From positions 1 to 64,000 of the forward strand of contig JAPLEV010000012.1 in NCBI GenBank assembly GCA_026391005.1: a stretch of DNA of 64,000 nt, read 5' to 3'. Below the pieces are notes generated by a model. The model searched no databases. It saw only the letters and a program-made list of their open reading frames with translations, and had not been told where the DNA came from. The position numbers and the translations under genes were made by a program. This DNA comes from Flavobacteriia bacterium. Lineage in GTDB: Bacteria; Bacteroidota; Bacteroidia; Flavobacteriales_D; Crocinitomicaceae. Below, piece after piece: positions 16,747-64,000 of this stretch (the stretch's first letter is position 1; the number at the start of each line of letters is the position of its first letter).

Positions 16747-16809
16747 GGCTCTCCAATCTTTTCTCAAATAATGATGGTATTGTTGTGAATAATATCGTGT
16801 CTATTTGAT

Positions 16810-16817
16810 TAAATTTG
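16810..16817 (+). promoter_or_regulatory. -7 element upstream of serS
   Basis: TAAATTTG, 20 nt before the ATG at 16838; it lies inside the reading frame if the upstream TTG at 16805 were used, which supports the later start. Confidence 0.4.
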
Positions 16818-16837
16818 TAAAAATATATAATTGTATT

Positions 16838-18109
16838 ATGTTAGAAATTCAACGTCTGCGCTCGGATAAAGAAGGGGTTATAATTGGACTTTCAAAAAGA
16901 AATATAGATCCCACGAAAACGATCAATGATATTTTAGAAATGGATGGGCTTTGGCGCGAGAACAAAACACAGCTTGAAAACATTTCCGCAGAATTAAACC
17001 AATTATCGCGGAAAATAGGAGATTGTTTTAAAAACAATAACCATGATGAGGCACTTTTATTAAAAAATGAAACCCAAGAATTAAAAGCAAAGGAAGCAGT
17101 TTTAAAAGCCCATGTTGATGAACTCGATTCGAAAATAACAACCATGCTATATTCCTTGCCAAACGTTCCACACGTAGATGTTATTCAAGGACGTTTGCCA
17201 GATGATAATCAGTTAATTGAGTCACAAGGGGAGTTGCCCACCTTTTCTTTTACGGCTATTCCTCACTGGGATCTCGCCAAGAAATATCAACTTATCGATT
17301 TTGAATTAGGAGTAAAGGTTACTGGGGCGGGCTTTCCTTTTTATCGTGGGAAAGGGGCTAAATTGCAGCGAGCATTGATTGCATTTTTTCTTGACGAGGC
17401 CGATAAAGCTGGTTATGAAGAGTTCATTGCTCCGCTTTTAGTTAACGAGGCAAGTGGAATAGGAACGGGTCAGCTTCCCGATAAAGAAGGTCAAATGTAT
17501 TATGCACCTGAAGATGAGTTGTATTTAATACCAACAGCAGAGGTTCCACTTACCAATATTTATCGTGATGTTCTTTTGCCAAATGAAGACTTTTCCATCA
17601 AACTTACTGGATATACACCTTGTTTTAGAAGGGAGGCGGGATCTTACGGAAAGGATGTAAGGGGTTTAAACCGACTACATCAATTTGACAAGGTAGAAAT
17701 CGTTAGAATTGAACATCCTAAAAACTCAGAAAAGGCATTAAATGAAATGGTGTCTCATGTTAGAAATTTACTAATCAAACTAGAATTGCCTTTTCGCATC
17801 CTGAGACTTTGCGGCGGCGATATGGGTTTTGCCTCGGCAATGACTTTTGACTTTGAAGTTTATTCCGCAGCTCAAGATAAATGGCTGGAGGTGAGTTCTG
17901 TTTCCAGGTTTGACACCTATCAATCTAACCGTTTAAAGTTACGCTTTAAAGATGCGGATAAGAAATCAAAATTATGTCATACGCTTAATGGCTCTGCACT
18001 TGCTCTACCTAGAATTTTAGCGGCAATGTTGGAAAATAATCAAACGCCGGAAGGAATAAAAATTCCTAGTATTTTGCAACCATATACGGGATTCGCGGTT
18101 ATTAATTAA
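16838..18109 (+). CDS. serS: Seryl-tRNA synthetase
   Basis: 423 residues from the ATG at 16838, chosen because it begins MLEIQRLR like other SerRS and because the longer frame from 16805 would include the -7 box. The N-terminal long antiparallel coiled coil (about 25-105) binds the tRNA-Ser variable arm. The class II core follows: motif 2 TPCFRREAGSYGKDVRGLNRLHQF and motif 3 GSALALPRILAAMLENNQ. It charges tRNA-Ser (and tRNA-Sec where present) with serine. It is followed 9 nt later by a small lipoprotein gene. Confidence 0.97.
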   Translation: MLEIQRLRSDKEGVIIGLSKRNIDPTKTINDILEMDGLWRENKTQLENISAELNQLSRKIGDCFKNNNHDEALLLKNETQELKAKEAVLKAHVDELDSKITTMLYSLPNVPHVDVIQGRLPDDNQLIESQGELPTFSFTAIPHWDLAKKYQLIDFELGVKVTGAGFPFYRGKGAKLQRALIAFFLDEADKAGYEEFIAPLLVNEASGIGTGQLPDKEGQMYYAPEDELYLIPTAEVPLTNIYRDVLLPNEDFSIKLTGYTPCFRREAGSYGKDVRGLNRLHQFDKVEIVRIEHPKNSEKALNEMVSHVRNLLIKLELPFRILRLCGGDMGFASAMTFDFEVYSAAQDKWLEVSSVSRFDTYQSNRLKLRFKDADKKSKLCHTLNGSALALPRILAAMLENNQTPEGIKIPSILQPYTGFAVIN

Positions 18110-48990: not shown

Positions 48991-51210
48991 ATGAAAATAC
49001 GTTTATTATTGTTTTATTTAGGCGTTCACCTTTCACTGAGTTTTGTGGTGAACTCTCAAGCAGAAATGCTAATGGTGTATAGAAAATCTAATGAAGCACA
49101 AAATATATTCAGCTCTGAAATTTTTCCAAAGGATGAAATTAAAGCGGCATACTCGGAAAACAAGCGATTTATTGATGAGGTCAGCTACGATGGTAGGGAA
49201 TGGTTTATTGTAACCAGTAAATTGGATTACACTGGACAGACGTATATTTTGAGTAAAGATTTACCCACAGAATGGGTAAAGACGAACTGGAATAAAGGGT
49301 ATCATATTACTAATTTTGTATTTGGGGATGAATACTGGCTTGTCGTTATGTCTGGAGGAACTGGATTTACAGGCCAACGGTTCTTCAGCGAATCGAATGC
49401 AACGGTGATCAGCACGAAGATAAAGGAAGCCTGGGATGAAAAATTCCGCATTACGGCTGCCGCTTTTGGTAATAATACTAGCGTGTTTGTTATGACGGCG
49501 GGATCTGTTTTAAAGGGTCAATCTTATAATTTTTCAGATGAACCTCCAAACGATTGGCTGCAGTCTTTTTACGATAAAAAATATAACGTTACCTGTGTTG
49601 GGCATACGGGTGAAAAATGGTTTACAGTTGTATCAACTTACAGCAGCCAAGAGGCCGAAAAATTTCAGAAATACACATCCATTGATTATGATAAAATCAA
49701 TGAAGAATATGAGGCGGGTTACTGGATTTATAAATTTTGTTTCAAACAATTGAGTAAGGAAGAACAAGCGTATTCGAAGAATTTGAAAAAAGCGCTTGCG
49801 GCAACCGATGAAGAGGCTGCCATCTTCTATTACACCGAAGCGCTTAAAATTGTCCCGAATGATGCTTTGTGCTTAAACAATCGCGCTTGGGCAAAATTTA
49901 AATTGGGACAATGTGATGGTGCTGTAGATGATATCGATAAATCACTTGTCGCTAAAAAAACAGCCTATTCGCTGCATACGAAAGCCTCCATCTTGGTTTG
50001 TCAAAAAAGGTACCATGAAGCCATAGGGTATTTTGATCAAGCTCTTGTTTTGTTGGAAGAGCCCGATGGGCAATTTTACTATGATCGTGGAAAGGCAAAA
50101 GAAATGATGGGGGATAAAAAAGGAGCAAAACTCGATTTTGAAAAAGGGATTGAAATTGATCCGACCAATGTGGACTATAAAGTACATTATGAATTGTTGA
50201 AGCAGAAAAGTGAGGTGCCAGTCATTACGTGGGATGCACCATTTAAAAGCTATTCAGCTGTTCCTAAAGACCTTTGCCGCATTAAAGTTTGCGTGAATTC
50301 AACTTCTCAACTTGAGGATATGAAAATTTACATCAACAATATGCTTTTTGAGTCCAGAGGGATTACCATTACTGATGAATGTAGTCAAGGTGTTGACCAA
50401 GAAATAAAATTACAATCGGGAAAAAATGAAGTTTACGTCCAGTTTAGTTTGAATGGCCAAATTTTTAAATCCGAAATCAGAACGATTGAATACAATCCTA
50501 ACAAGAAGTCGAGTAATTACCATGCATTGTTAATTGCTGTTCAAGATTACAATGATTTGGGAATTAAGGACCTTTCAAAACCTATTCAAGATGCTAAGTT
50601 ATTGAGGAATGTGCTTTTAAAAGAATATACGTTCGACAGCAGTTCGGTGACATTATTGTCCAATCCCACTAAGGAAACGATTATCAATGAAATGATTAAG
50701 TTGCAAGGTGAACTCGGCGAAAATGACAATTTATTGATTTATTATTCAGGACATGGAATTAACAAAAATGAAGTAGGTTATTGGCTTCCAAGTAACGCCA
50801 TGTTTGAAAATCGATCCAACTGGTTGTCAAATAGCGAATTTCGAGATTACCTCAATGGCATAAAAACAGAGCATACCTTGGTTATCGCAGATGCATGTTT
50901 TAGTGGCTCCATCTTCAACGGCGAATTTCGAGACATTGGGTCTTTTCCCTGTGAGGAAATGGCTAAAGTGAAGAGTAGAAGAGCAATGACTAGCGGCGCA
51001 AATACTGTTGTTCCCGACGAAAGTGTTTTTTTAAAGTACATCTGTACGATTTTATCAAATAATGAGCAAAGTTGCTTGTCTGCAGAGGAATTGTACAGTC
51101 GGATTAAACCTTCCGTAATTAGCAACAGTCCGAACAACCAAATTCCTCAGTTTGGTATTTTGCCGCAAGTAGGTGATGAAGGCGGAAATTTTGTGTTTAG
51201 AAAAAGATAA
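48991..51210 (+). CDS. Caspase-family protease with N-terminal beta repeats and TPRs
   Basis: 739 residues. Signal peptide (LLFYLGVHLSLSFVVNSQ), then four beta repeats (about 30-250) of the form W-..Y.IT...GD..W.VVMS.G..F.GQ.., resembling the domain I recall as DUF7477 at the end of plant CK1-like kinases. TPRs follow at about 255-400, a short beta domain (about 405-500), and a C14/CHAT-like caspase domain (about 505-735): ALLIAVQDYNDLG, catalytic His588 in YYSGHGIN and Cys636 in IADACFSGSIF, so it should be active. It is exported, so a periplasmic or surface role is likely. A papain-like protease follows 5 nt later. Confidence 0.87.
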   Translation: MKIRLLLFYLGVHLSLSFVVNSQAEMLMVYRKSNEAQNIFSSEIFPKDEIKAAYSENKRFIDEVSYDGREWFIVTSKLDYTGQTYILSKDLPTEWVKTNWNKGYHITNFVFGDEYWLVVMSGGTGFTGQRFFSESNATVISTKIKEAWDEKFRITAAAFGNNTSVFVMTAGSVLKGQSYNFSDEPPNDWLQSFYDKKYNVTCVGHTGEKWFTVVSTYSSQEAEKFQKYTSIDYDKINEEYEAGYWIYKFCFKQLSKEEQAYSKNLKKALAATDEEAAIFYYTEALKIVPNDALCLNNRAWAKFKLGQCDGAVDDIDKSLVAKKTAYSLHTKASILVCQKRYHEAIGYFDQALVLLEEPDGQFYYDRGKAKEMMGDKKGAKLDFEKGIEIDPTNVDYKVHYELLKQKSEVPVITWDAPFKSYSAVPKDLCRIKVCVNSTSQLEDMKIYINNMLFESRGITITDECSQGVDQEIKLQSGKNEVYVQFSLNGQIFKSEIRTIEYNPNKKSSNYHALLIAVQDYNDLGIKDLSKPIQDAKLLRNVLLKEYTFDSSSVTLLSNPTKETIINEMIKLQGELGENDNLLIYYSGHGINKNEVGYWLPSNAMFENRSNWLSNSEFRDYLNGIKTEHTLVIADACFSGSIFNGEFRDIGSFPCEEMAKVKSRRAMTSGANTVVPDESVFLKYICTILSNNEQSCLSAEELYSRIKPSVISNSPNNQIPQFGILPQVGDEGGNFVFRKR

Positions 51211-51215
51211 AGGCT

Positions 51216-52637
51216 ATGCATATTAAGATACACTACGCGATAGCTATTGCGGCTTTCTTTTCAAATGGGTCAACGATGGCTCAAACGTATTATACAGGAA
51301 TACCAGAGGGACGTGACACATTGTACGATCAAGTCGACAAAAAAGCGATCTTAAAAGAATCCAATTATCGAGATGTAGGATCGAGATTTTCAATAAAGGA
51401 GTATGCCCCGATTCCCGGAGATCAAGGGCAATATGGGACCTGCGCAGCATGGGCAACAACCTATTGTGCAAGAACAATACTAGAATCTGTAGCTTTTGAA
51501 GAGAAGGATAAAGAAAAAATTACAAAGAATGCCTATTCTCCCGGTTTCGTTTATAGGCTTGCCTCTTCGAACGCCAATTGTTCAGGTTCATTTCCCACAA
51601 AATGTGCGGAACAGATGATCGAATATGGCGCTCCTAAATTTGCAAATCACAGTGAGCTTTGTCCTATAGACTTAAGTGAGGATTTGTTCGAACTGGCGAA
51701 AGAAAATAAAATTAAAGCATATGCTAAGTTATTTGAAAATTCAGATTTTTATGCGGTTAGTGACAAGGAAAAGGTTCAGCGTGTAAAAAAGAGTATTTCC
51801 GAAAAATATCCTGTAGTCATTAGTATATTTTGTCCCAATTCATTTAGGGATTGTAAAGGAGAACTTTGGCAGCCCACTGAAAGTGTGGATAGCGAAATCA
51901 ATCATCAACATGGCCGTCATGCCTTGTGTGTGGTGGGGTATGATGATGAAAAGTATGGGGGCGCTTTTGAAATCCAAAATAGTTGGGGAACCAAATGGAG
52001 CAATAATGGCTACGTTTGGGTGTCATACAGTGACTTTGCAAAATTTACTTATCAGGCCATTGAAATGATCGGGAATGAGAATTATTTAAATCAAGAATCT
52101 TTAATTTCTGGGGGATTAAAAGTTCTGCTCTCTGATGGAATCCCAATGACAGCCACCATCAACAAGGAGGGTGTTTTTGTTCTAGATGAAGCCATGCACT
52201 CAGGTCAACGATTTAGACTGTATTTAAACAGTTCTGCACCCACGTATTTGTATGCATTGAATATCGATGATAAAGGAGAAATTGATCAACTTTTCCCTTT
52301 TGAAGAAGGTGTAAGTCCTCTATTGAATTACCAGAATAACGATGTCCCAATTCCTTCGGAGAACAAGCAAATGCGACTAGATGGAGAAACTGGAAAAGAG
52401 TATTTATGTCTGATGTATTCAAAGAAAGCTATTGATTTTGATGTATTAACAAAGCAATTGGGAAGTCAATCAAAAGCCATGTCAATTTATCAGCGTTTTC
52501 AAGCGTGTTTTGGGAACCGTCTCGTGTTGCCTTCAAATATAAATTTTTTGAATGAAGATAAATCCATTGAATTTGAAGTTGTTACCAATTACACCGATGT
52601 TGTTGTTATTGTATTGGAGATAAGGCATTTGGATTAA
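51216..52637 (+). CDS. Papain-like (C1) cysteine protease with DUF4384-like C-terminus
   Basis: 473 residues; weak signal peptide (IAIAAFFSNGSTMAQ). The papain-like domain (about 60-285) has the oxyanion Gln and catalytic Cys76 (DQGQYGTCAAWATTYCA), His235 (GRHALCVVGYDD) and Asn255 (FEIQNSWGTKWSNNGY). Residues about 295-410 resemble DUF4384 (FRLYLNSSAPTYLYALNID, GEIDQLFP, LDGETGKEYLCLMYSKKAID), a domain often found beside caspase-like modules. It is 5 nt after the caspase gene, so the two proteases are co-expressed. Substrates are unknown; neither toxin nor immune function is shown. Confidence 0.87.
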   Translation: MHIKIHYAIAIAAFFSNGSTMAQTYYTGIPEGRDTLYDQVDKKAILKESNYRDVGSRFSIKEYAPIPGDQGQYGTCAAWATTYCARTILESVAFEEKDKEKITKNAYSPGFVYRLASSNANCSGSFPTKCAEQMIEYGAPKFANHSELCPIDLSEDLFELAKENKIKAYAKLFENSDFYAVSDKEKVQRVKKSISEKYPVVISIFCPNSFRDCKGELWQPTESVDSEINHQHGRHALCVVGYDDEKYGGAFEIQNSWGTKWSNNGYVWVSYSDFAKFTYQAIEMIGNENYLNQESLISGGLKVLLSDGIPMTATINKEGVFVLDEAMHSGQRFRLYLNSSAPTYLYALNIDDKGEIDQLFPFEEGVSPLLNYQNNDVPIPSENKQMRLDGETGKEYLCLMYSKKAIDFDVLTKQLGSQSKAMSIYQRFQACFGNRLVLPSNINFLNEDKSIEFEVVTNYTDVVVIVLEIRHLD

Positions 52638-52814: not shown

Positions 52815-52845
52815 TTTGATATCAAGTTAAAATTTCTTAAATTTG
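52815..52845 (+). promoter_or_regulatory. Consensus promoter of the NRPS gene cluster
   Basis: TTTG (52815-52818), exactly 19 nt, TAAATTTG (52838-52845): a perfect Bacteroidota consensus. The first NRPS start is 73 nt after the -7 box. No other promoter is evident between the cluster genes. Confidence 0.7.
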
Positions 52846-52918
52846 TTTAAGACTAGAAATAGTTTTATTAAAAAGAATGATTTCATTGTTTTAACGATTA
52901 ATTGATGTTTTTTTTTGA

Positions 52919-55627
52919 ATGCTAGTACAGCCTTTTCAGAATCTTTTTATTCAGAAGGAATTAACTTCTGGCTCGGCGGGGAATAGCACTCTTAATGGCA
53001 GGGCAATTTTTGATCAAATTGATTTCTTTAAATTCTCTCGTTGTCTTAATAATTTCATTACAAATTCACAATGGGCTTATTTACATTTAAGCGAGTGTTT
53101 TACATTTTGGATAATAAAAGACCATTTCGGCGGCTGTTTAAACATAGATGAACAGACTTCTCCATCAAAGATTTCTCTTACTTGTTTATGGGAAATTTCA
53201 TTTTTTAAAAATGGAGATGGAGCAATTCTAGATGTAGCTATGCACCATGCTTTTGCAGACGCTCATACTTTTCAGCTTTTTTGGACGGGGGTAATAAGTG
53301 AATATAACGAAAAAAAACACCTCATAATAAACCCTCATTATCCAATCAATTCTTTTCAGGCGCTATATATTCCAAATATCAAGTTAATCGAAAATAATGG
53401 CCTCGGTCCAATCGAAAGAAAAACAATTAGCTTTTCTGCCTTTAGAAAAAATCAATTTCAAAAAATGGCCAACGCCAAAGCTATTTTACTTTCTACAGCA
53501 CTTATTAGTGTTCTTCAAGCCGAATTGGATTATGTTGAAAAATATCTTGGGCTGAATTTACAAGCGGGTTTTGCGCTTAGAAATAGATCAGGAAGAAATG
53601 CGCGAGCTTCATTTTTGACGGCAGTTAATTTTCTTCCAGTAACCCATTACCCAATTACCAAAATCAAAGATTTAGAAGCCCACATTAAGCAATTGTTTCG
53701 ACACCAAGACTATCCATTGATTCAATGGCTAAGTGATAATAATCGCTCTATGGCATTTAATGTATTGTTTTCCTATCAAAAACAGGAATATGATGCAGAG
53801 CAGGGAGCAGAATTAATTTTTTTACCAGCTCCCGAGGACGAAACGATTTTAGGTGTACATGTACTTGATTTCGGAGATGGAGACATCAAAATATCATTTG
53901 ATTTTCGAACTGATATAGCAGACCAATCATTTTGGAGGGCATTTATTGTACAATACCTTAATGCTATTAGCCTATTTCTTAATGATTCGGCTTTAAATTT
54001 TGAATTTAAGAAATCAAGCTTACTGCCTAAATATACACATAAGTCACTTTGGTCCAATTTTGATATTGCACCCTCGGAGCGAAAAGCATTAATTTGTAAT
54101 GGCGCAACAATAACGTTTGGAGAATTAAGAGCCACCTTGGAGGCAATGCCTTGCCCTGCAGATCCGATTATTTTTATTGAGCCTGATCGATCACTAAACA
54201 GCATTCTTTTAATTCTTAAGGCATGGAAGGAAAATAAGATCGTTGCTTTTTCTCCGTCAAAAGAGGTGATCATACCGGAGGGGGACTTTTTGTATTTAGC
54301 TCAAACCTCAGGAAGTACTGGAGAGCCGAAAACTATCTTTATTTCGCGAGCTGGTATAGAGTCAATGTTGGATGGTTGGCAAAAGCAATTGAATATATCA
54401 CCATCTTCCGTTCATCTATCAACAGCTGACCAGCGGTTTGATGTGTTCTTTGGGGACTTATTTAGAAGCATTTTTTTGGGGACAACGATGGTTCTAGCAT
54501 CAAAAGAAGAACAATTTTCCCCCATTTCCATTTCTGATTTATTAGTTAAAAACAGCGTTACCCACTATGAATCAACACCTTCCCTTCTTCTTTTATTAAC
54601 ATCTAAGCTTACTGCATTATCTTATTTAAAAGCCCTAATTATCGGATCAGAACCTCTTACATATCAATTACTTGTTCTGATTAAAAAAATATCAAACACT
54701 GGATTAAAGGTTTTTAATAGTTATGGTTTAACTGAGGTTAGTATTGATTCCGCCTTAGCCGAAATCAATACTTCGATTACCGACTATTTCCCTGTAGGAT
54801 TTCCGCTTGGCGACCAATGCTTTAAAATCATAAACATTCAATCCGAAATAGTTCCCATTGGTATTTGGGGTGAATTAGTTATCAAAGGAAAGTGTGTTGG
54901 GAGGATTTTAGGCAGCGATCAAAAGAATCTTTCAAATGGATCTGATTCTGAATTTTTTACAGGCGATCGAGCAATGATTCATCCAAATTTTGGATTAATT
55001 GTAAATGGAAGATTGAATAATGATTTTATAAAGGTACATGGAAAAAGAATACCTACTAGTGCTTTAGAGACCTTCATTTTAATGAATACCGATGCAACAA
55101 ATTGTTTCGTTTTTGAAAAGAAAGGTCTTGTAATATTGTCTCATAACGCCAAGACGGAAGATCAGGTATCTATTAATAAACTTGCAACTAAATTCCAAAG
55201 ACATCAAATTCCTGACATAATTTTAAAAATAGATGATTGGCAACTAAATAAAAATGGAAAAGTCGATAAAGAAAAGATCAAGGATACAATCGTATTGCCA
55301 ATTAACAATGGTATTAAATGGCGCCCGTCTAGTGAAAAAAATGATGTAGCTATTGCCAATATATTTAATAAAACAGGAAAGGATTGGGGAGATAAAGAGG
55401 AGTCCTTATATTTTTATGGGTGGAATAGTATTGATTTATTATCTTTCTGTAATGAACTATTAGTTCAAGGATATTCAATAAGCGCTGCCGTTATTTTGAG
55501 GGACCCGACAATAGCCACAATCTTACAACAAATAAAACAAAAAACGAATGACGCAAAAAAAATTACGCCAAGTATTTCCGTCAGTGGAAATGATTTGGAT
55601 GAGATTCTTAAAATACTAAACGGGTAA
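52919..55627 (+). CDS. Non-ribosomal peptide synthetase, C-A-T module, predicted Orn-activating
   Basis: 902 residues. Condensation domain about 1-360 with HHAFADA (His109-110, Asp114; the usual Gly is Ala). Adenylation about 375-790: A3 SGSTGEPK (464-471), FDVFFGD (507-513), NSYGLTE (600-606), FFTGDR, NGKVDK with Lys781. Binding-pocket residues D508 V509 G512 E551 I574 G576 S601 I609 D610 K781 read DVGEIGSIDK, which I know as an L-ornithine code. Carrier domain Ser837 in GWNSIDLL. It would open the assembly line; the N-terminal C domain suggests acylation by a fatty acid or upstream peptide. The A domain is compact. No thioesterase. Confidence 0.9.
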   Translation: MLVQPFQNLFIQKELTSGSAGNSTLNGRAIFDQIDFFKFSRCLNNFITNSQWAYLHLSECFTFWIIKDHFGGCLNIDEQTSPSKISLTCLWEISFFKNGDGAILDVAMHHAFADAHTFQLFWTGVISEYNEKKHLIINPHYPINSFQALYIPNIKLIENNGLGPIERKTISFSAFRKNQFQKMANAKAILLSTALISVLQAELDYVEKYLGLNLQAGFALRNRSGRNARASFLTAVNFLPVTHYPITKIKDLEAHIKQLFRHQDYPLIQWLSDNNRSMAFNVLFSYQKQEYDAEQGAELIFLPAPEDETILGVHVLDFGDGDIKISFDFRTDIADQSFWRAFIVQYLNAISLFLNDSALNFEFKKSSLLPKYTHKSLWSNFDIAPSERKALICNGATITFGELRATLEAMPCPADPIIFIEPDRSLNSILLILKAWKENKIVAFSPSKEVIIPEGDFLYLAQTSGSTGEPKTIFISRAGIESMLDGWQKQLNISPSSVHLSTADQRFDVFFGDLFRSIFLGTTMVLASKEEQFSPISISDLLVKNSVTHYESTPSLLLLLTSKLTALSYLKALIIGSEPLTYQLLVLIKKISNTGLKVFNSYGLTEVSIDSALAEINTSITDYFPVGFPLGDQCFKIINIQSEIVPIGIWGELVIKGKCVGRILGSDQKNLSNGSDSEFFTGDRAMIHPNFGLIVNGRLNNDFIKVHGKRIPTSALETFILMNTDATNCFVFEKKGLVILSHNAKTEDQVSINKLATKFQRHQIPDIILKIDDWQLNKNGKVDKEKIKDTIVLPINNGIKWRPSSEKNDVAIANIFNKTGKDWGDKEESLYFYGWNSIDLLSFCNELLVQGYSISAAVILRDPTIATILQQIKQKTNDAKKITPSISVSGNDLDEILKILNG

Positions 55628-55679
55628 TAATACCACAATGAAGGTTGATGGAAGTATATTACGTGTAAAAAAATAGCCA

Positions 55680-56759
55680 ATGGATAGCATACAATTTTTG
55701 AATAATCTTGCTGAAACAAAAGCCAAATACAATTTAGGCGCCGGTGTTCCTCCTTTGGAGCTATATCCGCAGTTATTTCCCGACGAATTAATGACGTTGT
55801 TTGTTAAAGAAACGGGAGCCGATTTAATGCCTTATCATAGAACAGAAGGGATTCTTGGCGAATTTGCCCGAACGACAATCCTATTGAATGAAAACATTCG
55901 TGTAGAAGAAAATCAGGTAGTATTAACGAATGGTGTACAAGAAGCCATTTTTCTCACCCTTCAACTATTTAAGGGGAATAAAGTTGCTTGTTTAGACCCA
56001 TATTATCCGGGTTTTGTTGATGCAGCTCGAATAGTCGGGTGTGAGCTTGAGATCATTAAAGAAGAGAATTTCCTTCTCGGCTTGAATTCTTTGAAAAAAG
56101 GAGACCTCTTTTATATTTCGGCAGATAATAGTAATCCTAGCGGCAAAACATTGACCCAACAGGAGCGAGAAACATTGGTGGAAATTGCTTCTGAGCGCGG
56201 CTTTTTCCTTTTTGATGACTCAACTTACCGTGAATTTAACCTTGAATCGAAATTACCGACATTATTTTCGATTAATCCGAAATGCGTTATTCACGCATTA
56301 TCATTTTCAAAAATTCTAGCCCCAGGACTTAGAACTGCTTTTTTATATCTCCCCGAAGCCTTGCGCAAATCGTTGTTAAAACTAAAGTCAAGTGTAAGTT
56401 TAAATAATTCGGGATTCACGCAAGGAATAGTCGGCGGTTGGCTACTCAAAAATGAGTTCATACTTTCCAATCATTTGGGGATTATCAAAAACCGACTTAG
56501 AGAAAATCAAAAGGTTTTAGTCAAATTTGGTGTGGAATATTCAGGAGGATTCTTTATTTTATTTAAACCGAAGAACCAATTTTATAATATGAAATTATGC
56601 AATTCTTTGTTGCTCAATCAGGGTATATCGACCTGTCCTCTTTCTTTGTTTTCTCCCCATGAAAATGGTCATTTACGCTTATGTATCGCCAACATTAATG
56701 AGCAGCAACTTCAAAAAGTTTTAGATATTATTATTAACTTTGATTATCATGAATATTAA
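55680..56759 (+). CDS. PLP aminotransferase, candidate HpgT-like arylglycine transaminase
   Basis: 359 residues, fold type I class I/II aminotransferase. Visible: NGVQEAIFLTLQLF, DPYYPGFVDAARIVGCE, SADNSNPSGKTL, FLFDDSTYREF, and the PLP lysine K211 in SFSKILAPGLRTAF, which groups it with MocR/HpgT-like enzymes. The neighbours suggest it amines 4-hydroxyphenylglyoxylate to 4-hydroxyphenylglycine, with Tyr as donor giving back hydroxyphenylpyruvate. This is inference; alone it could transaminate other aromatic acids. It overlaps the next gene by 11 nt. Confidence 0.85.
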   Translation: MDSIQFLNNLAETKAKYNLGAGVPPLELYPQLFPDELMTLFVKETGADLMPYHRTEGILGEFARTTILLNENIRVEENQVVLTNGVQEAIFLTLQLFKGNKVACLDPYYPGFVDAARIVGCELEIIKEENFLLGLNSLKKGDLFYISADNSNPSGKTLTQQERETLVEIASERGFFLFDDSTYREFNLESKLPTLFSINPKCVIHALSFSKILAPGLRTAFLYLPEALRKSLLKLKSSVSLNNSGFTQGIVGGWLLKNEFILSNHLGIIKNRLRENQKVLVKFGVEYSGGFFILFKPKNQFYNMKLCNSLLLNQGISTCPLSLFSPHENGHLRLCIANINEQQLQKVLDIIINFDYHEY

Positions 56760-57834
56760 ACCGGAAATATTTTTTATTGAGATTTTTGTTGGCATGGGGA
56801 AGATTGTTTCTTGGTGGCATGAATATGCATTAGGTTTCGAACTCAAAGGTAAGCGCGAATCAATTGGCCAAAAAGGCAGGCAATTAACGTATTGGCTGCA
56901 ACTTGGGGAGTGTAATTTACTGATAACATCAGCATTAGAGCCTTCGGCAACAGACATTGTGTCGTTTGTTGATCGGCATGGCAATTCAATAAAATCCTTT
57001 GCTGTTGAGATAGACGATATAAATGCTGTGTATCTTGAATTAAAAGAAAAAAAGGCCATTATGCTTAATAAGGAGATTGAATGGCTGGAGATCAATGGTG
57101 AAAAATCAGGTACAATTCGTTGTAAGCTTTTTGACGACAATGAAATTAATTTTATACAACGAATTAATTGTAAAAACATACTTCCTGGCTTTGCCGAAAC
57201 TTCTGAAAAAACGGACAAAGAAGTTGCTCTTCCAAAAGGTAATGTCTTACGATTTGATCACCTTGCATCTGTTGTTCGCACTAACGAAGCAAATTTCTGG
57301 AATGAATATTTGATCAGAATTTTTTCGTTGAAGGAAATTTATACAGTTGGCGAAGAATTTTTTGCAGGTCTTTCAACGGGAATGCAAATGCATGTTTTAG
57401 CATCTGAAAATGGTCGGTTTAATAAAGTAATTGTTGAGCCACTTTTGGAAAAAGAAAAAAAATCTCAGGTTGATATTTTTATACAGCACCACCTGGGTAA
57501 CGGAATTCAGCATATTGCATTTGAAGTAGATGACCTCACCGCAATCATTTCTGGGTTTAAGGAAAGAGGAGTGAAGTTTACCACTATCCCTGAAAAGTAT
57601 TATGTTGATTTAGCCAAGGAGCATCCCGAATTACCAATTGAGGAATTGAAAAAAGCAAATATATTGTGTGAAATTGATGGTTCTAAATTACTGCTTCAGG
57701 TTTTTACCGAGCCAATAGGTGATAGGCCAACCTTATTTTATGAATTTATTCAGAGAATTAATTCTTTTAGTGGTTTCGGCACCAATAATATCAAGCAACT
57801 ATTCAAATCGTTAGAAGCACAACTTAATGGATGA
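56749..57834 (+). CDS. hmaS: Two-domain HPPD-family dioxygenase, candidate 4-hydroxymandelate synthase
   Basis: 361 residues from ATG 56749 (an earlier in-frame TTG at 56740 is less likely). Two vicinal-oxygen-chelate halves; iron ligands His171 (RFDHLASVV), His255 (GIQHIAFEVDD) and Glu332 (LFYEFIQR), and the C-terminal GFGTNNIKQLF are all present. HPPD and HMS share this fold; HPPD has PLNEP or PINEP, whereas the actinomycete HMS I recall reads TLIEP. Here it is VIVEP (Val229 in place of Asn), favouring HMS. It would turn 4-hydroxyphenylpyruvate into 4-hydroxymandelate. Placed between the aminotransferase and an oxidase, as an Hpg pathway needs. Confidence 0.82.
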   Translation: MNIKPEIFFIEIFVGMGKIVSWWHEYALGFELKGKRESIGQKGRQLTYWLQLGECNLLITSALEPSATDIVSFVDRHGNSIKSFAVEIDDINAVYLELKEKKAIMLNKEIEWLEINGEKSGTIRCKLFDDNEINFIQRINCKNILPGFAETSEKTDKEVALPKGNVLRFDHLASVVRTNEANFWNEYLIRIFSLKEIYTVGEEFFAGLSTGMQMHVLASENGRFNKVIVEPLLEKEKKSQVDIFIQHHLGNGIQHIAFEVDDLTAIISGFKERGVKFTTIPEKYYVDLAKEHPELPIEELKKANILCEIDGSKLLLQVFTEPIGDRPTLFYEFIQRINSFSGFGTNNIKQLFKSLEAQLNG

Positions 57835-59017
57835 AATTAGAATCGCGGACCATTCCGGGCTTTCATATACGACTACTTGCTACTTTTTTCCCAAAAAAAC
57901 AGAGGAACTACAACTTTTCCTTGTTAATAATCCTTTAAAAAAAATCCGCATAGGTGGCGGCTTAACCGGAGTTAGCGGAGGAGCAGTCCCTTCAGAAGAT
58001 GAGTGTTTTATTAGTCCTACTTTTTTAAATAATTTGGCTTGGATTGATCAAGATTCGGGCATTTTGGAGGCTGATTCAGGAGTGACAATGCATGAAATAG
58101 ATGTTTTTTTAAAACAAACAAATTGGTTCTTCCCTTCCATGCCAGGAATGCCAAAAGCGACGGTTGGAGGAATGGTTGCCAACAACGGCGGCGGGCCCTA
58201 TTCGTTGAAATACGGCAAGATTTCTAGTGCTATTTTATCCATTCAGGTTGTTTTAGCAAATGGTCAAAAATGTGAATTTGGTGGAACGGCAACAAAAATT
58301 TCCGAAGGAATTGATTTTAAAGCAATTTTTATTGGATCTGAGGGTACTTTGGGCATTATAACAAAAGTCATATTTCGTTGCCAAGCAAAAATTAAACACA
58401 CGTATTTTTACAGATTTGTTTTTGAAGATTTTTCAGAATTACTTTCTTCAGTACCAGTACTCTTAACTTATGATGCCCTATTGCTTGAAGCCGCGGAGCA
58501 GGATGCTCTTCATTTTTCTTCAAACAAAAATGAGCATGTTATTTGGTTAGCAACTTCGCTAGAATTGCCCAAAGACGCAAGTAATTATTTTTCTTTTTCT
58601 AGAGAAAATGAAACAATTATGGAAGAGCGTTTTGCTATTGGTAAAAATCTTCAAACGTATAAACCCTTCATTGATCTTGACGTTTCTTTTGGCTTAAATA
58701 CTGCTAAATCAGCTATTATAGCGTTAAAGGAACTTTTGACCCAGCACAATTTTGAGAATATATTTTTTGGTCATGCCGGCGATGGAAACTGGCATATTCA
58801 TGTTTTTTTTAATGATGATCGGGCTAAATGGGATACATGTTTAACTAAATTTGATTTAATCGTTCGACAACATCAGGGGTTTATAAGCGGCGAGCATGGA
58901 ATCGGCCGAATACATACTAATCGTTTTAGAAAAGGATCTAGCCCTACAGATCAGGCGCTTTATAAATCGATTAAACAGACTCTTGATCCTAATCATCAAT
59001 TACCCTCTTTTTATTAG
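57827..59017 (+). CDS. GlcD-like FAD-linked oxidase, candidate hydroxymandelate oxidase
   Basis: 396 residues of the VAO/PCMH flavin family: KIRIGGGLTGVSGGAV, MPGMPKATVGGMVANNGGG, FIGSEGTLGIITKV, and C-terminal FFGHAGDGNWHIH and SGEHGIGR, as in D-lactate, glycolate and D-2-hydroxyacid dehydrogenases. In actinomycete Hpg clusters the step from hydroxymandelate to hydroxyphenylglyoxylate uses an unrelated FMN alpha-hydroxyacid oxidase (Hmo). Here this flavin enzyme could do it, perhaps on the D-enantiomer. It overlaps hmaS by 8 nt. It is shorter than GlcD (about 460-500), mostly in the middle. Confidence 0.85.
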   Translation: MDEIRIADHSGLSYTTTCYFFPKKTEELQLFLVNNPLKKIRIGGGLTGVSGGAVPSEDECFISPTFLNNLAWIDQDSGILEADSGVTMHEIDVFLKQTNWFFPSMPGMPKATVGGMVANNGGGPYSLKYGKISSAILSIQVVLANGQKCEFGGTATKISEGIDFKAIFIGSEGTLGIITKVIFRCQAKIKHTYFYRFVFEDFSELLSSVPVLLTYDALLLEAAEQDALHFSSNKNEHVIWLATSLELPKDASNYFSFSRENETIMEERFAIGKNLQTYKPFIDLDVSFGLNTAKSAIIALKELLTQHNFENIFFGHAGDGNWHIHVFFNDDRAKWDTCLTKFDLIVRQHQGFISGEHGIGRIHTNRFRKGSSPTDQALYKSIKQTLDPNHQLPSFY

Positions 59018-59019
59018 CG

Positions 59020-60399
59020 TTGAAAAATATAGAAATCTCCATAGTTCATATTGATAATTGTGAAAATGATTTGTCTTTTTATGAGGACGCCTATACAATA
59101 AAATTTAAAGATGAAAAAAGGAAAAGAGAGTCGTTGGTTGCCCGATTACAACTTGATTTATTATGCATTAAAATTTACAAAAAAAACCTATCGGAATTAG
59201 GTTTCTCAAAGGACGATTTCGGAAGGCCATTCTTTCTTTTTGACTCAACTATTCATTGCTCTATTACTCATTCTTTCGGCTGGGTAATTGTTGCTCTGTC
59301 AAATGCCCCAATAGGTATTGACTTTGAAAAGATTATTCCCGAGCAAAAAGAAGACCTTAAATTAGCCTTTACTGAAAATGAATGGCGGAAAGTCGCCAAC
59401 GATTCTAATCTTGTGTTCACTCTTTTCTCTATGAAGGAATCGTATTCAAAATTGATAGGAAAAGGATTTTCAATCGATCCAAGATTCATTTCCATTAGTC
59501 CGGAAAGCTATTCTTATAGCCGATTAATTACGTTTAATTCAAAAGATTTTTTTATATTTACATTAATTTGTTTGCAAAAAATAAACAGTATTAAGTTTGA
59601 TAAATATCTAGCTGTGGAAGAATTGAATGAAATACAAAAATATCAGAAATACGCAGAGGAATATAATAAAACCGGGGTTCTATTTCTAAAAGAGATTCTT
59701 TCTCAAAGCAAACTCCCTAATTACGAGAAGATGATGGGCTTTGAAGAGGTACTTTTTTACGAGAAAGACGGCGTAACTCTTCGTTCTGTTTATGCCTTAC
59801 ATACAGGACAATACTTTAGGGATTGGCTATCTAAACAGCGGTGGATTTATGATTTATGCAAACCCATTTTGGGGGAAGATTTTTATGTGCACCAAAGTAA
59901 AATAAACATTAAAAACAAGCAGGATAGCTCAATATGGCCTTATCACAGAGACTATTCTTTTTGGAGAAACTTTGATAATATTGTCGAGAATAAAATGCTG
60001 AATTTTATTGTCTATTTAGATGATGTTACGAAAGGATCTGGCGAATTAAATATTATTCCATATAGTCATCTTGATTTTCTTCCGCATGAGAGTCAAAATT
60101 TTAAACAAGAATACTCAATTGATGGAAGCGCCTCAAGTGATTTGTTGTTTGGTTTTTCCGAGGATGATTTGGCGTATTTCGTTTCTCGATATTCTGTAGA
60201 GACCAACGAAGGGGGAAAAGGTTCTGTTTTACTCTTTAACCCTGATTGCATTCATGGTTCCGGGTCTTCTAATATCGATTTCGGAAGGAAAATGCTCATT
60301 ATTACCTTTAATAGTTGCGATAATTTACCAGTAAAAAAATCAGACAGGCCCGAATATCTTTCTTCAACAAATTTTAATCCGTTAAAATGGACAAAATAA
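59020..60399 (+). CDS. Fusion: Sfp-type phosphopantetheinyl transferase plus PhyH-type Fe/2OG dioxygenase
   Basis: 459 residues from a TTG start 2 nt after the oxidase stop. Residues about 1-195 are an Sfp-type PPTase: CSITHSFGWVIVALS, IGIDFEK (98-104), FSMKESYSKLIGKG (Lys139-Glu140). Residues about 205-459 form a phytanoyl-CoA-hydroxylase-like Fe(II)/2OG dioxygenase: HRD (309-311), LNFIVYLDDVTKGSGELNII, FNPDCIHGSGS (His412), Arg423. The frame is continuous with no stop. The PPTase would arm the NRPS carrier domains; the dioxygenase could hydroxylate a carrier-bound or free amino acid. I know no such fusion. It overlaps the next gene by 13 nt. Confidence 0.88.
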   Translation: MKNIEISIVHIDNCENDLSFYEDAYTIKFKDEKRKRESLVARLQLDLLCIKIYKKNLSELGFSKDDFGRPFFLFDSTIHCSITHSFGWVIVALSNAPIGIDFEKIIPEQKEDLKLAFTENEWRKVANDSNLVFTLFSMKESYSKLIGKGFSIDPRFISISPESYSYSRLITFNSKDFFIFTLICLQKINSIKFDKYLAVEELNEIQKYQKYAEEYNKTGVLFLKEILSQSKLPNYEKMMGFEEVLFYEKDGVTLRSVYALHTGQYFRDWLSKQRWIYDLCKPILGEDFYVHQSKINIKNKQDSSIWPYHRDYSFWRNFDNIVENKMLNFIVYLDDVTKGSGELNIIPYSHLDFLPHESQNFKQEYSIDGSASSDLLFGFSEDDLAYFVSRYSVETNEGGKGSVLLFNPDCIHGSGSSNIDFGRKMLIITFNSCDNLPVKKSDRPEYLSSTNFNPLKWTK

Positions 60400-61085
60400 A
60401 TGAGCCTATCTTCCATCTGGAGCGATTAAAAGAAAATATTTTATTTCTTAACGATTTCTTTACTCAAAAAGAATTAGCGTGGACATTTGTCATTAAGGCC
60501 TTTTGCAACTATTCGCCAGAATTTATTAGCGAATTAGTAAAACTCCCCATAAATAGTGTAGCTAGCGACAACGAGCAACATTTGAAGTTATTTAAAGGAG
60601 GCAAAACGGATATTGAAACGTGGCACCTTAATTATAGCGGTACAAATGTCGATTATAATTGGGTAGATGTTGAGTTGACACACTCGTTACTTAATATCCA
60701 AAAGAAAACTTGTTTAATGCTAGCATTAGATAATGATCGTTATGGCTCACAAATTACGGATCCTACAAATAATATTTTTAAAAACTGCTGTTCTCGTGTT
60801 GGTGCATACTTAAATTGTGAGAAAATGCCCACAAGGTCATTTTTTAAAAAATGGAGTTCATTTAACTTTCCGGCAGAATTTACTCAGAGCCTAGGCACAT
60901 CGGTAACGTTTGAACACGCAACTTATCTTCAGGATAATCGCGTAAATCATTTCCGAATCGGAGAGATTGCTCTTACTGGGAGGTTAATAGGTAGTAATAA
61001 TAAAATTAAAGGAATGAGGCATGATGTATTCACTTCTACACAGCCAGTGAGTTATCACTTTCTTTCAAACTTAAAAAATAAATAA
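60387..61085 (+). CDS. Shortened alanine-racemase-N-fold PLP protein
   Basis: 232 residues. It resembles the N-terminal barrel of alanine/ornithine-racemase-like (Orr, YggS-related) enzymes: FVIKAFCNYSPEFISELV with the PLP-lysine candidate Lys37, DNEQHLKLF, and NHFRIGEIALTG, matching LRIGEAILLG of Orr-type proteins. Full Orr enzymes are about 350 residues, so the C-terminal domain and parts of the barrel are missing. It may be an unusual racemase giving a D-residue (perhaps D-Orn, as the NRPS lacks an epimerase here), or non-catalytic. It overlaps the next gene by one base. Confidence 0.65.
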   Translation: MDKINEPIFHLERLKENILFLNDFFTQKELAWTFVIKAFCNYSPEFISELVKLPINSVASDNEQHLKLFKGGKTDIETWHLNYSGTNVDYNWVDVELTHSLLNIQKKTCLMLALDNDRYGSQITDPTNNIFKNCCSRVGAYLNCEKMPTRSFFKKWSSFNFPAEFTQSLGTSVTFEHATYLQDNRVNHFRIGEIALTGRLIGSNNKIKGMRHDVFTSTQPVSYHFLSNLKNK

Positions 61086-61600
61086 TGCGGATAATAAATT
61101 CATTTATCGACACCGATTTTATTGATGAAATTGCTGAGGAAAATAAGGAGCTATTGTATTCTAGTTGCTGGAAATCTAGCCTTGGTTGGCAGGAAGAAAT
61201 CATTTCGCCTGTAGGCTCGGTTTTAATTCGGGATCTTAACGATACTCAAAAAGAGACCTTGATCACGGCACTCGAAAAGAGAAATATTATTGATAGAACC
61301 AAAATATATGAATTTGAGGCGCAAGCTTATTTATGGCAGCGCTTGAGCTTCATCCCATGGCATAATGATAAAGAAGAAGATGATTGCGTTCGTTTTGCCG
61401 CGTCCCTTTATCTTAATAAGGAATGGAAAGAAGATTGGGGGGGCTTATTCCTTTACAATAATAGCGGATCAATTTATGCAGAGGTCCCTTCCTATAATAA
61501 ATTTGTGCTGAATGATAATAATTTTGCACACGCAACTACAATAATATCCACTGAGGCGCCCTTGCGCCAATCAATTCAATTATTTTGGAAACAAAAATAA
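61085..61600 (+). CDS. Prolyl-4-hydroxylase-like Fe(II)/2OG oxygenase
   Basis: 171 residues. Iron ligands His93 and Asp95 (IPWHNDKEEDD) and His149 (NNFAHATTII), with the 2OG-binding Arg161 (RQSIQLFWK). RFAASLYLNKEWKEDWGG-FLY is typical of P4Hc-type oxygenases. It would hydroxylate a free or carrier-bound residue, possibly ornithine or an aromatic side chain, next to the PhyH-type domain encoded two genes upstream. Its stop overlaps the methyltransferase start by 16 nt. Confidence 0.85.
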   Translation: MRIINSFIDTDFIDEIAEENKELLYSSCWKSSLGWQEEIISPVGSVLIRDLNDTQKETLITALEKRNIIDRTKIYEFEAQAYLWQRLSFIPWHNDKEEDDCVRFAASLYLNKEWKEDWGGLFLYNNSGSIYAEVPSYNKFVLNDNNFAHATTIISTEAPLRQSIQLFWKQK

Positions 61601-62385
61601 ATCAACATTTAAATTTATTCGGACTAAAAGCAGATCAGGATGCTTTTGGCAATAATATCTACGAAACGTATATTTCAGGCAAGTTTTATAGCGGCTATGA
61701 AATTGGAGAACGCAGTGATGGATACTTTACTTTGTATGGAGATAGCAATGCCTATTTTGAGCCATTTGAAGAATGGTCATCGATTCAAAAAGAACTTTCA
61801 AGCGACATTAATGGCGTTATATTGGATATCGGTTGTGGAGGTGGAAAACACGCCTTGTATTTTCAAGATAAAGGGCAAAAAGTATATGCAATGGATAATT
61901 CTCCAAAAGCTATTGATACATGTAAACTTAGAGGAATAGAGAATACAATAATATGTGATGTTGAACATTTCCATTTAGTGGATACAGCCATTAAGTTTGA
62001 TAGCATATTATTTTGGGGAAATAATGTCGGGTTACTTCAGAATAAATCCTTTTTTGTTTATTTTTTAAATTTATTAGAGAATTATACCAACAATAATTCA
62101 ACACTCTATCTTGAAACGATGAATCCTTACGAAGAAGGATTTTTGGATGAAGACACCGTTAGCTATGTAGAAAATAATCTTTTGCAAAAAAAATTAGGTG
62201 GACAAATGTCCGTGAGGGTTAGATATAAAAAATATGCAACGCCCTGGAATGACTATCTCTTTATCTCAACGGATGAATTGGAGCAACTTCTTACAGAAAC
62301 TAATTGGCGAACAGAAAAGATTTTAAAGGATTTTGAGACAAATCAGTTTATTGCTGTATTAAAGAAAAAAAATCGTTCGGATTGA
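61585..62385 (+). CDS. Class I SAM-dependent methyltransferase
   Basis: 266 residues from a TTG that overlaps the upstream gene. Rossmann motif I DIGCGGG (81-87, VILDIGCGGGKHALYF), acidic end of strand 2 AMDNSPKAID, and FDSILFWGNNVGLLQN at motif post I. The N-terminal 70 residues are a separate cap-like part. It likely methylates the peptide or a building block in this cluster; N, O or C cannot be told. A second NRPS gene begins 13 nt later. Confidence 0.85.
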   Translation: METKINQHLNLFGLKADQDAFGNNIYETYISGKFYSGYEIGERSDGYFTLYGDSNAYFEPFEEWSSIQKELSSDINGVILDIGCGGGKHALYFQDKGQKVYAMDNSPKAIDTCKLRGIENTIICDVEHFHLVDTAIKFDSILFWGNNVGLLQNKSFFVYFLNLLENYTNNNSTLYLETMNPYEEGFLDEDTVSYVENNLLQKKLGGQMSVRVRYKKYATPWNDYLFISTDELEQLLTETNWRTEKILKDFETNQFIAVLKKKNRSD

Positions 62386-62398
62386 AACAAGGTTAAGT

Positions 62399-64000
62399 AT
62401 GTTAAGCAGAGATTACTGGACGAATTATTACAAGAACATTAAATTAGGGAAATCTATTGAAGGTGTTTTTACAAATGATGTTGAATTTGATTTTCATCTT
62501 CCAGAGCAATTAAATACATGGAGTAAAGGCAATTTAAATAACGCAAAGATTTTATTGCTCAGCATAATTCGCGAGATATTTTTTGAACATGAGTTACCGT
62601 TTTCTCTTTCCTTAAGTATTGATAGTCAATGTTTGCCAATTGACACATGCGGTAATGGTGACTTTCGTGTTGGCGCGAAAAAATTACTAGAAGATTTTCG
62701 TTCTCATTTATTGCACATTGATTCTTTCTTTTTAATTGAAAGCAGGGGGTTGTTAGTAACAGATGAATCTTCTAAAACGAACGGAAAAGAAACGATTGTA
62801 TTCACCATTTCGGATAATTTAAATACGTTAAAAGTATTTTGCAGAAATGAGTTACAGCAATTCGTTCGGGCGTTGGCCCAAATAATTGTTTCCAAGATTA
62901 ATTCAGATGCTATAATTGATAGCACTGATTTTAGTATTTATGTATCGGAATTGCTATCGGTTTCGGCGGATGTTGCTTCAAAACGCAGAATATTAGTTGA
63001 ACAAACTTGGCAGGAAATTTTTCAGAAACCAATTGAATGGCAAAAAAATTATTATTCGAATGGTGGCGACTCTATTCAAGCAATTAGACTCCTTTCAAAA
63101 TTAAAAGAAAAAAATGCCATTGTTGATCTTTCGGGCTTACTAAATGCTTATTCATTGGAATATTGGGTGTTTGAAAGTGGCGGAAATCGCTTGTCATCAA
63201 ATTCGGACAAGAATTTCTCCCCAAAACGTTATCCCCTTTCGGATATGCAAGTGAAGGTATGGAATCACTATCAGTCATTTAAGACGCATGGAGCATATCA
63301 CGAGCAATTTTTATTTGAAATAAAACGGTTCTCTGGAGTTGAAATAATCAGAGAGTGTATTGATGCAATATGGAAAAGTTACGATCAATTAAGGGTAAGA
63401 ATTGACGACAAAGATGGCGTCCTTTATCAAGAAATTATGGATGATATTCCAGTTTCTTTTATTGAGGCGTCATTTGAAAATATAAACGAAGCCATTGAGG
63501 CTGATCTTTCTACGTATTTTGAAAACACGCTGCTTAGGGTTACGATTTTCACTGTCCAAAATAAAACGTATTTATTATGGTCCCATCACCATGTGATTTT
63601 AGATGGATGGAGTGTCGGAATACTTATTAGAGAATTTGTCCAAAGAATATCAGTCCGTAATCAAACGGTGATTCAACAGCCAAATTATCAATACAGATTG
63701 TTGGAATATGAAAAGGGACTATCTTCAAGTGATATAAACAAAGAGGTATTAAATCCATATCTTTTCCCATTATACCAATATCAACTGCCGGCAACATTTC
63801 AAACCATCTCATATGATCGATTAGATGTTGATTTTTCAAAGGAAGCAGCATTAATTAACAATCTTCAAATTACAAGGCAATTACTTTGTTGTGGATTAAT
63901 AGGATTGGTTATTGGCGCTGTCAATTCTGAAAAAAAATTCTATTTTAATGGGATTTCTTCTGGTCGAGATTTTCTAGAAGGAGAAATTGATAGTGCTGTC
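62399..64000 (+). CDS. Second NRPS, partial: C-lobe remnant, T, C domains
   Basis: 534 codons open to the window edge with no stop, from ATG 62399. Residues about 1-185 look like only the C-terminal lobe of a condensation domain (DYWTNYYKNIK; TIVFTISDNLNTLKVFCRNE) with no HHxxxDG. A carrier domain follows with Ser225 in NGGDSIQAIRLLSKL, then a condensation domain from about 270 with HHVILDG (His397-398, Asp402). No A domain is seen yet; it may lie beyond the window. The product is predicted to extend the ornithine-activating module. Confidence 0.88.
   Translation, partial: MLSRDYWTNYYKNIKLGKSIEGVFTNDVEFDFHLPEQLNTWSKGNLNNAKILLLSIIREIFFEHELPFSLSLSIDSQCLPIDTCGNGDFRVGAKKLLEDFRSHLLHIDSFFLIESRGLLVTDESSKTNGKETIVFTISDNLNTLKVFCRNELQQFVRALAQIIVSKINSDAIIDSTDFSIYVSELLSVSADVASKRRILVEQTWQEIFQKPIEWQKNYYSNGGDSIQAIRLLSKLKEKNAIVDLSGLLNAYSLEYWVFESGGNRLSSNSDKNFSPKRYPLSDMQVKVWNHYQSFKTHGAYHEQFLFEIKRFSGVEIIRECIDAIWKSYDQLRVRIDDKDGVLYQEIMDDIPVSFIEASFENINEAIEADLSTYFENTLLRVTIFTVQNKTYLLWSHHHVILDGWSVGILIREFVQRISVRNQTVIQQPNYQYRLLEYEKGLSSSDINKEVLNPYLFPLYQYQLPATFQTISYDRLDVDFSKEAALINNLQITRQLLCCGLIGLVIGAVNSEKKFYFNGISSGRDFLEGEIDSAV

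Follow-up and report, generated by a model that had tools for sequence, protein, structure and literature searches.

The NRPS gene cluster described here, from an uncultured member of the Bacteroidota, very probably directs the synthesis of a small peptide that contains ornithine (Orn) and hydroxyphenylglycine (Hpg), the latter being a rare amino acid and a building block of important antibiotics such as teicoplanin and ramoplanin. As predicted from the sequence, the product is quite likely a short modified peptide of about six residues (Orn, Thr, a further residue, an Asn-like residue, an Hpg-type residue and Orn), with an arylglycine supply of its own through a HmaS, a GlcD-type oxidase and an aminotransferase. 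The cluster lies at 52919-84418 of contig C43 (117,941 bases), the first 64,000 bases of which are the whole stretch of DNA analysed (hereafter, the window); the source genome comprises 2.64 Mb in 56 contigs, with a completeness of 95.3%. An earlier note on the window had proposed the combination of ornithine with an arylglycine, and this main idea holds in substance, with its Hmo homology and its promoter corrected. Beyond it, the cluster points to an alternative Hpg supply that apparently evolved independently.

Gene content and proposed pathway

Nine genes of the cluster fall in the window, all on the plus strand between 52919 and 64000, overlapping or separated by gaps of at most about 50 bases, and the cluster continues beyond the window up to an M28 peptidase gene. 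In cluster order, the genes are:

52919-55627, plus strand: NRPS1, degenerate C (HHAFADA)-A-T, A code DVGEIGSIDK, read as ornithine (Pfam, motifs, code)
55680-56759, plus strand: PLP aminotransferase of fold type I, proposed arylglycine transaminase (PF00155, E 7.8e-26)
56740-57834, plus strand: HmaS-like dioxygenase, proposed 4-hydroxymandelate synthase (TIGR01263, 225.5 bits; HmaS-type residues; fold)
57827-59017, plus strand: GlcD/VAO-type FAD oxidase, proposed 4-hydroxymandelate oxidase (PF01565, E 3.8e-21; PF02913, E 1.6e-22)
59020-60399, plus strand: Sfp-type phosphopantetheinyl transferase (PPTase) and PhyH dioxygenase in a single ORF (PF01648, ACPS; PF05721)
60387-61085, plus strand: short protein resembling only the N-terminal domain of ornithine racemase (Orr; sub-threshold match, E 7e-4)
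61085-61600, plus strand: small 2OG-Fe(II) oxygenase (PF13640, E 1.9e-6)
61585-62385, plus strand: SAM-dependent methyltransferase (PF13649, E 6.6e-8)
62399-64000, plus strand: start of NRPS2, which runs on to 69016, N-terminal stretch-T-C-...A...T-E (Pfam, motifs, A code)
Contig 69022-76788, beyond the window: NRPS3, C-A-T-C-A-T-C-T-TE (domain order from Pfam stretches and motifs)
Contig 76853-83578, beyond the window: NRPS4, C-A-T-C-A-T-C (domain order from Pfam stretches and motifs)
Contig 83579-84418, beyond the window: M28 peptidase

The same-strand, mostly overlapping run of genes described in the earlier note is present, with the domains that it had listed, apart from the racemase-like protein, for which we obtained only a sub-threshold Orr match and no match in the Pfam search. 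The terminal modules had been expected beyond the window, and the cluster does reach 84418 and includes the TE-bearing NRPS3. Moreover, with C, A, T and TE domains and a PPTase, the cluster contains the elements of a modular NRPS. The claim of a single consensus promoter was rejected, because promoter-like sites are no more frequent in the region (45 found) than in shuffled sequence (44.4 ± 7.0); the stretch 52816-52843 matches at 9/12 positions.

Upstream of the cluster are caspase-like and papain-family genes, namely, at 48991-52637 of the window, a protein with TPR-like and EACC1-type caspase matches and, next to it, a papain-family protease that contains DUF4384. Downstream, on the opposite strand, are TPR, peptidase, transporter and ExbB/ExbD/TonB-like genes, named by eye from their translations.

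From the gene content, domain order, HmaS-type residues, A codes and their conservation, all of them read directly in the sequence, we infer the following catalytic steps. The HPPD-derived HmaS would convert 4-hydroxyphenylpyruvate to 4-hydroxymandelate, the GlcD-type FAD oxidase would oxidise this to 4-hydroxyphenylglyoxylate, and the aminotransferase would yield Hpg, to be loaded by the first A domain of NRPS3. The PPTase would prime the carrier domains, the E domain of NRPS2 would epimerise one residue, the PhyH and 2OG oxygenases together with the methyltransferase would act in tailoring, and the TE of NRPS3 would release the product. The modules probably act in the order NRPS1-NRPS4-NRPS2-NRPS3.

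Several accessory genes recur in related clusters. Homologues of the Orr-like protein (228-231 aa) are found in loci L044, L045 and L046, those of the small 2OG oxygenase in L044 and L046, and those of the methyltransferase in L044-L046 and also in the L047 and L048 clusters. PPTase and PhyH are separate genes in 5/5 relatives in which both were read (L044-L048), and their single ORF in the window (59020-60399) may be a true fusion or result from a small assembly indel.

The dioxygenase is predicted to be of the HmaS kind

The dioxygenase scores 225.5 bits against TIGR01263, the HPPD cut-off being 277. The genome holds a separate HPPD above that cut-off (441 bits), located beside an HmgA-like ORF that scores below its own family cut-off. 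In a signature alignment of 61 rows (27 HmaS-type and 34 HPPD), the Fe(II) ligands of the window protein (H174, H258 and E335) are the same in all rows. At the diagnostic sites of the pocket, the HPPD residues are replaced: the window protein carries A176, V178, V230, V232 and I351, and the 34 HPPD rows have, in the same order, V (33 rows) or T (one row), N, P, N and F. All 27 HmaS-type rows share A at site 176; they have V, I, L or S at site 232 and I or V at site 351, against N and F, respectively, in 34/34 HPPD rows. At site 230, Bacteroidota and Acidobacteriota HmaS have V and actinomycete HmaS have T, with P in 34/34 HPPD rows. A passage of PMC3720870 places Ser221, Val223 and Ile355 of the Streptomyces coelicolor Hms along a substrate-side gate; by our own reading, these residues would correspond to alignment sites 230, 232 and 351.

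An AlphaFold2 model of the dioxygenase (mean pLDDT 82.9, 18 sequences) adopts the fold of HPPD and HmaS. The structure search gave Z 40.3 for 3isq, an HPPD and the best match, and 37.9 for 2r5v; as HPPD and HmaS are matched about equally, the fold cannot decide between them. Overall, the window protein resembles HPPD in fold, in metal triad and in an identity of approximately 34% with its closest HPPDs from Bacteroidota, and differs from it at the replaced sites. We propose that it is of the HmaS kind rather than an HPPD, and predict that it produces 4-hydroxymandelate.

Distribution and gene cassette in relatives

A scan of genome contigs returned 22 HmaS loci. MAGs from Flavobacteriales/Bacteroidota, one of which carries the label Saprospira grandis, hold HmaS at 59-62% identity, plus two cut loci; Flavobacterium, Kordia, other Flavobacteriaceae, Chitinophagaceae and Microscillaceae hold HmaS at 37-40%, and two Acidobacteriota loci at 35-36%. 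L064 and L065, in which HmaS is cut, were excluded, leaving 20 loci for the counts. In the order of the source genome, 4/199 genomes have a HmaS match at E 1e-50, own included, and three of these four are among the 22 same-genus genomes listed, again own included; two of the same-genus matches share coordinates with L045 and L048. Across the phylum, 210/395 genomes match at E 1e-20, and only the source genome and G245 do so above HPPD level, the signature sites having been read in the returned loci and the own HPPD (31 rows). The G245 contig is that of L052, Flavobacterium tructae CCUG 60100, with proteins 100% identical.

Many loci have flanks of no more than about 10 kb. A GlcD-type oxidase was found in the cluster at 20/20 complete-HmaS loci, directly downstream of HmaS in 18/20; in the two Acidobacteriota loci it lies more than 40 kb away, beyond NRPS genes. 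An aminotransferase is present in 17/20 loci, directly upstream of HmaS in 16/20, and was absent from the stretch read at L044, L049 and G402. The FMN-oxidase motif (SNHGGRQ-type), which was searched for as a motif, occurs in 0/20 loci in the stretches read. In Kordia periserrulae DSM 25731 (G399; L054 and L055), the aminotransferase-HmaS-oxidase trio is found twice, on two contigs, with nearly identical HmaS.

Outside these groups, a plasmid of Candidatus Bandiella numerosa (Rickettsiales; NZ_CP104165.1 40000-85000, L129) carries at locus 15378-17566 an hppD-annotated gene with HmaS-type motifs (DHLA, FGKNNI), which adjoins a PLP aminotransferase and SbnA/SbnB; genes for MbtH and a PPTase lie in the vicinity.

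Origin of the HmaS

HmaS/HPPD trees were built with 43, 39 and 44 rows, the last including 2r5v and 7yvv. The HmaS of L051, L053 and L062 were left out as near copies, and L052 was represented by its G245 copy. Not included in the 43-row tree were L046, L055, L059, L063, 14 HPPD rows from Bacteroidota and, for its long branch, Candidatus Bandiella (L097). The 39- and 44-row trees were built without Azospirillum (L096), and the 39-row tree also without the actinomycete rows L085, L088 and L089. In all three, Bacteroidota and Acidobacteriota HmaS form one group (support 100/99 or better). In the two trees drawn, those of 43 and 44 rows, the sister of this group is a set of seven Bacteroidota HPPDs, joined to it at 100/98 and 100/99, respectively, apart from actinomycete HmaS. 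A single HmaS clade was rejected by the AU test (p 0.0145 with 43 rows, 0.009 with 39 and 0.003 with 44), placing the window HmaS outside the actinomycete clade of 2r5v and 7yvv, and 0/200 bootstrap trees set HPPD and HmaS on opposite sides of one branch. The signature columns were kept in the alignment, which should favour one HmaS clade.

These results suggest that HmaS arose a second time from HPPD, independently of actinomycete HmaS, with caution called for by the long stems (about 1.5 for actinomycete HmaS and about 1.6-1.7 for the window's group) and by the uneven composition of several, mostly actinomycete, rows. The same features would be expected if HmaS had a single origin and the apparent second one were a long-branch or composition artefact, and both groups show the same kind of replacement at sites 176, 232 and 351; in addition, actinomycete sampling is thin (nine rows from plasmid records and two from PDB). 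We consider a single origin rather unlikely, in view of the AU and bootstrap results and of sites 230 and 355, which are V and F in the window's group and T and Y in actinomycete HmaS, F at site 355 being the HPPD state kept in Bacteroidota. The more comprehensive reading, to which we give slightly less than an even chance, is that a second HmaS arose from a Bacteroidota-type HPPD through replacements of the same kind and would make (R)-4-hydroxymandelate, that members of the D-2-hydroxyacid (GlcD) oxidase family were recruited in Bacteroidota and Acidobacteriota to complete Hpg, and that a hidden reservoir of Hpg peptides may exist outside actinomycetes.

Oxidase, aminotransferase and predicted stereochemistry

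The earlier note had matched the enzyme set to HmaS, Hmo and HpgT. The HmaS part was supported, the transaminase has the right fold type and may or may not be an orthologue of HpgT, and the Hmo part was not supported. According to a passage of PMC6677016, Hmo is an FMN-dependent alpha-hydroxyacid oxidase; in the Pfam search, the window oxidase has no FMN_dh match and carries FAD_binding_4 and FAD-oxidase_C instead, and its PDB relatives are LctD and the D-2-hydroxyglutarate and D-lactate dehydrogenases. Homology to Hmo was rejected on these FAD domains and GlcD-type relatives, and on the FMN motif being found in none of the 20 related loci in the stretches read. The window aminotransferase is 27% identical to that of Flavobacterium and 25-28% identical to those beside actinomycete HmaS; for the Flavobacterium enzyme, the latter value is 33-35%.

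Among eight actinomycete plasmid loci, the FMN motif was found in 4/8, a GlcD-type oxidase in 3/8 and neither within 20 kb in 1/8; in a ninth, from S. angustmyceticus, an annotated alpha-hydroxy acid oxidase lies directly downstream of HmaS. An H-x-G A code (e.g., DAFHLGLLCK) occurs in 5/8 of these plasmid loci. Three Streptomyces plasmids (L081, L083 and L086) hold HmaS, a GlcD-type FAD oxidase, an aminotransferase and NRPS genes together, and L081 and L083 also an annotated Asp/Glu racemase-family gene. The idea of an FAD oxidase confined to Bacteroidota was rejected, since in these three plasmids, too, HmaS is accompanied by an oxidase of the GlcD type. In a quick oxidase tree (48 rows), which has long branches and background rows from Bacteroidota and none from actinomycetes, a limit that bears on any single recruitment of the oxidase, the window-type, Flavobacterium-type, Acidobacteriota and Streptomyces oxidases form four separate groups among Bacteroidota GlcD-like proteins.

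The title of PDB entry 7yvv reads 'AcmP1, R-4-hydroxymandelate synthase'; no literature on this enzyme was found among the best 20 of 35 matches. AcmP1 groups (99/92) with the HmaS of L081, L083 and L086, whose loci have a GlcD-type oxidase, and with that of L085, which has no oxidase in the stretch read, so that in its clade GlcD-type oxidases accompany HmaS in 3/3 plasmid loci with an oxidase found. 2r5v, of the S-type clade, groups with the FMN-motif loci L087-L090 at a support of only 89/77, and the HmaS of L094, the locus with an annotated alpha-hydroxy acid oxidase, falls outside both actinomycete clades. The window protein shares with AcmP1 the HPPD fold and the FGxxNI motif, and differs in being only about 26% identical and in a different clade. 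Since the AcmP1 clade goes with GlcD oxidases, Hmo oxidises (S)-mandelate (in a passage of PMC6677016) and the PDB relatives of the window oxidase include D-lactate and D-2-hydroxyglutarate dehydrogenases, we predict that the window pathway runs via (R)-4-hydroxymandelate. The prediction is drawn from few loci, and those of S. finlayi and NBC_00887 also contain an Asp/Glu racemase-family gene.

Adenylation codes and the predicted residues

A codes were read by alignment to GrsA numbering, with a GrsA reference segment; the first A domain of NRPS3 can be aligned with residues 183-524 of PDB 1amu. The codes are DVGEIGSIDK for NRPS1, DFTKIGEVGK for NRPS2, DIAHMGFVLK and DVGEIGSIDK for NRPS3, and DFWNIGMVHK and DAHWVTYVVK for NRPS4. 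We read them as Orn twice, Thr, an Asn-like residue and, for DIAHMGFVLK, an Hpg-like residue. The classical Hpg code is DIFHLGLLCK, with which DIAHMGFVLK agrees at only 5/10 positions. For the others, a passage of PMC3992020 gives DVGEIGSIDK as ornithine; this code, in two A domains (NRPS1 and NRPS3), supports the ornithine predicted in the earlier note. PMC12283262 lists DFWNIGMVHK under Thr and, under Asp/Asn/Glu/Gln, DLTKIGEVGK, which differs from the NRPS2 code by one residue; DILHLGCTFK is reported there to accommodate Hpg.

The arylglycine claim had been made to depend on an arylglycine-type A domain downstream of the window, and an Hpg-like code was found there, in the first A domain of NRPS3. 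Together with the HmaS-type residues and the separate genomic HPPD with its HmgA-like neighbour, it supports the claim. Among related loci with any A domain read, 12/15 contain Hpg-like codes (D-I-x-H-x-G), which are DIAHMGFVLK in the window's relatives, DIFH[FY]G[LF][IV][FV]K in Flavobacteriaceae and Chitinophagaceae (DIFHFGLIFK in Flavobacterium), and DILHFG[WL][VI]IK with DIFHFGLVIK in Acidobacteriota; none was seen among the readable A domains of L053, L059 and L062, whose flanks are short and partial. A search with the first A domain of NRPS3 at E 1e-40 matched its own genome only, so the Flavobacterium Hpg-type A domain became the control query. Of the 30 control loci, L106 yielded no A domain that could be read, and one of the other 29 belongs to the genome of the query itself; in the remaining 28 A domains, each the best match of another genome of the phylum without a HmaS-level match, the pattern D[IVA]xH[FYLM]G, fixed after the window and related-locus codes had been seen, occurred in 0/28, and three carry H278 and G301, as DAAHNGTITK.

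The pathway could also end in phenylglycine, another arylglycine or free 4-hydroxymandelate or 4-hydroxyphenylglyoxylate. A passage of PMC3720870 describes substrate promiscuity of Hms, naming p-fluoro- and p-nitro-phenylpyruvate, and DIAHMGFVLK departs from the Flavobacterium code. We regard such an outcome as improbable, as each of the four NRPS3 homologues has the H278 and G301 of the Hpg-type code (4/4 carry DIAHMGFVLK, window included, identical in three relatives) and D235 is retained, for which an amino acid, not a hydroxy acid, is expected; Hpg rather than Phg is the residue that we infer. Still more remote is the view that these three enzymes (dioxygenase, oxidase and aminotransferase) serve to degrade tyrosine, lie beside NRPS genes by chance and make no arylglycine: tyrosine catabolism likewise uses an HPPD-fold enzyme and an aminotransferase, and the best structural match is an HPPD, but the genome has its own HPPD, the window protein has HmaS-type residues, and HmaS is clustered with a GlcD-type oxidase in two phyla, with Hpg-like A domains in most loci read.

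NRPS2 departs from its relatives in another respect. In three relatives its homologue has the code DLFNHAWTYK instead of DFTKIGEVGK, and the other five codes are identical or show 1-2 changes, wherever the domain was read. By BLAST, the start of NRPS2 is 29.6-30.4% identical to the relatives over 658-693 residues and its end 34.6-41.7% over 480-621, and the A domain between these conserved ends is only 25-28% identical. Residues 664-930 and 1388-1740, searched alone, had no match at E ≤ 0.1 in the sequence pool, and the alignments of the T-E end extend back to 1606-1629 in two relatives. This pattern suggests an A-domain exchange in NRPS2 (contig C43 62399-69016).

Relation to known systems and significance

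The proposed route has the same three steps as the glycopeptide HmaS-Hmo-HpgT route to L-Hpg (as given in part of PMC6677016), and likewise relies on a HmaS with the HPPD fold, an oxidase for hydroxymandelate and a transaminase. It differs in its FAD oxidase of the GlcD/VAO type, in place of the FMN-dependent Hmo, and in a HmaS outside the actinomycete clade. No cross-linking P450 (Oxy), a glycopeptide trait, was found among the 12 cluster proteins scanned against Pfam. Formadicins, from Flexibacter, have Hpg-type, nocardicin-like residues. They are a Bacteroidetes product (PMC9248904, in the part available), and the likeness to the present cluster is drawn by origin and product. Hydroxyphenylglycine or Hpg is absent from the main text of PMC9248904, a survey of Bacteroidetes clusters, and from the available text of PMC8841776, which describes NRPS and PKS clusters in Acanthopleuribacter pedis. 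Among the literature matches listed, as titles and abstract beginnings from few subscription journals, none reports a HmaS pathway in Bacteroidota or Acidobacteriota.

The apparent second HmaS offers a test of how often, and via which residues, HPPD becomes HmaS, and the window HmaS, as a putative (R)-4-hydroxymandelate synthase from nature, is a candidate for use in biocatalysis. Moreover, a predicted Hpg pathway with an apparently independent HmaS and another type of oxidase, shared by uncultured Flavobacteriales, the culturable genera Flavobacterium and Kordia, and Acidobacteriota, would widen the search space for Hpg peptides.
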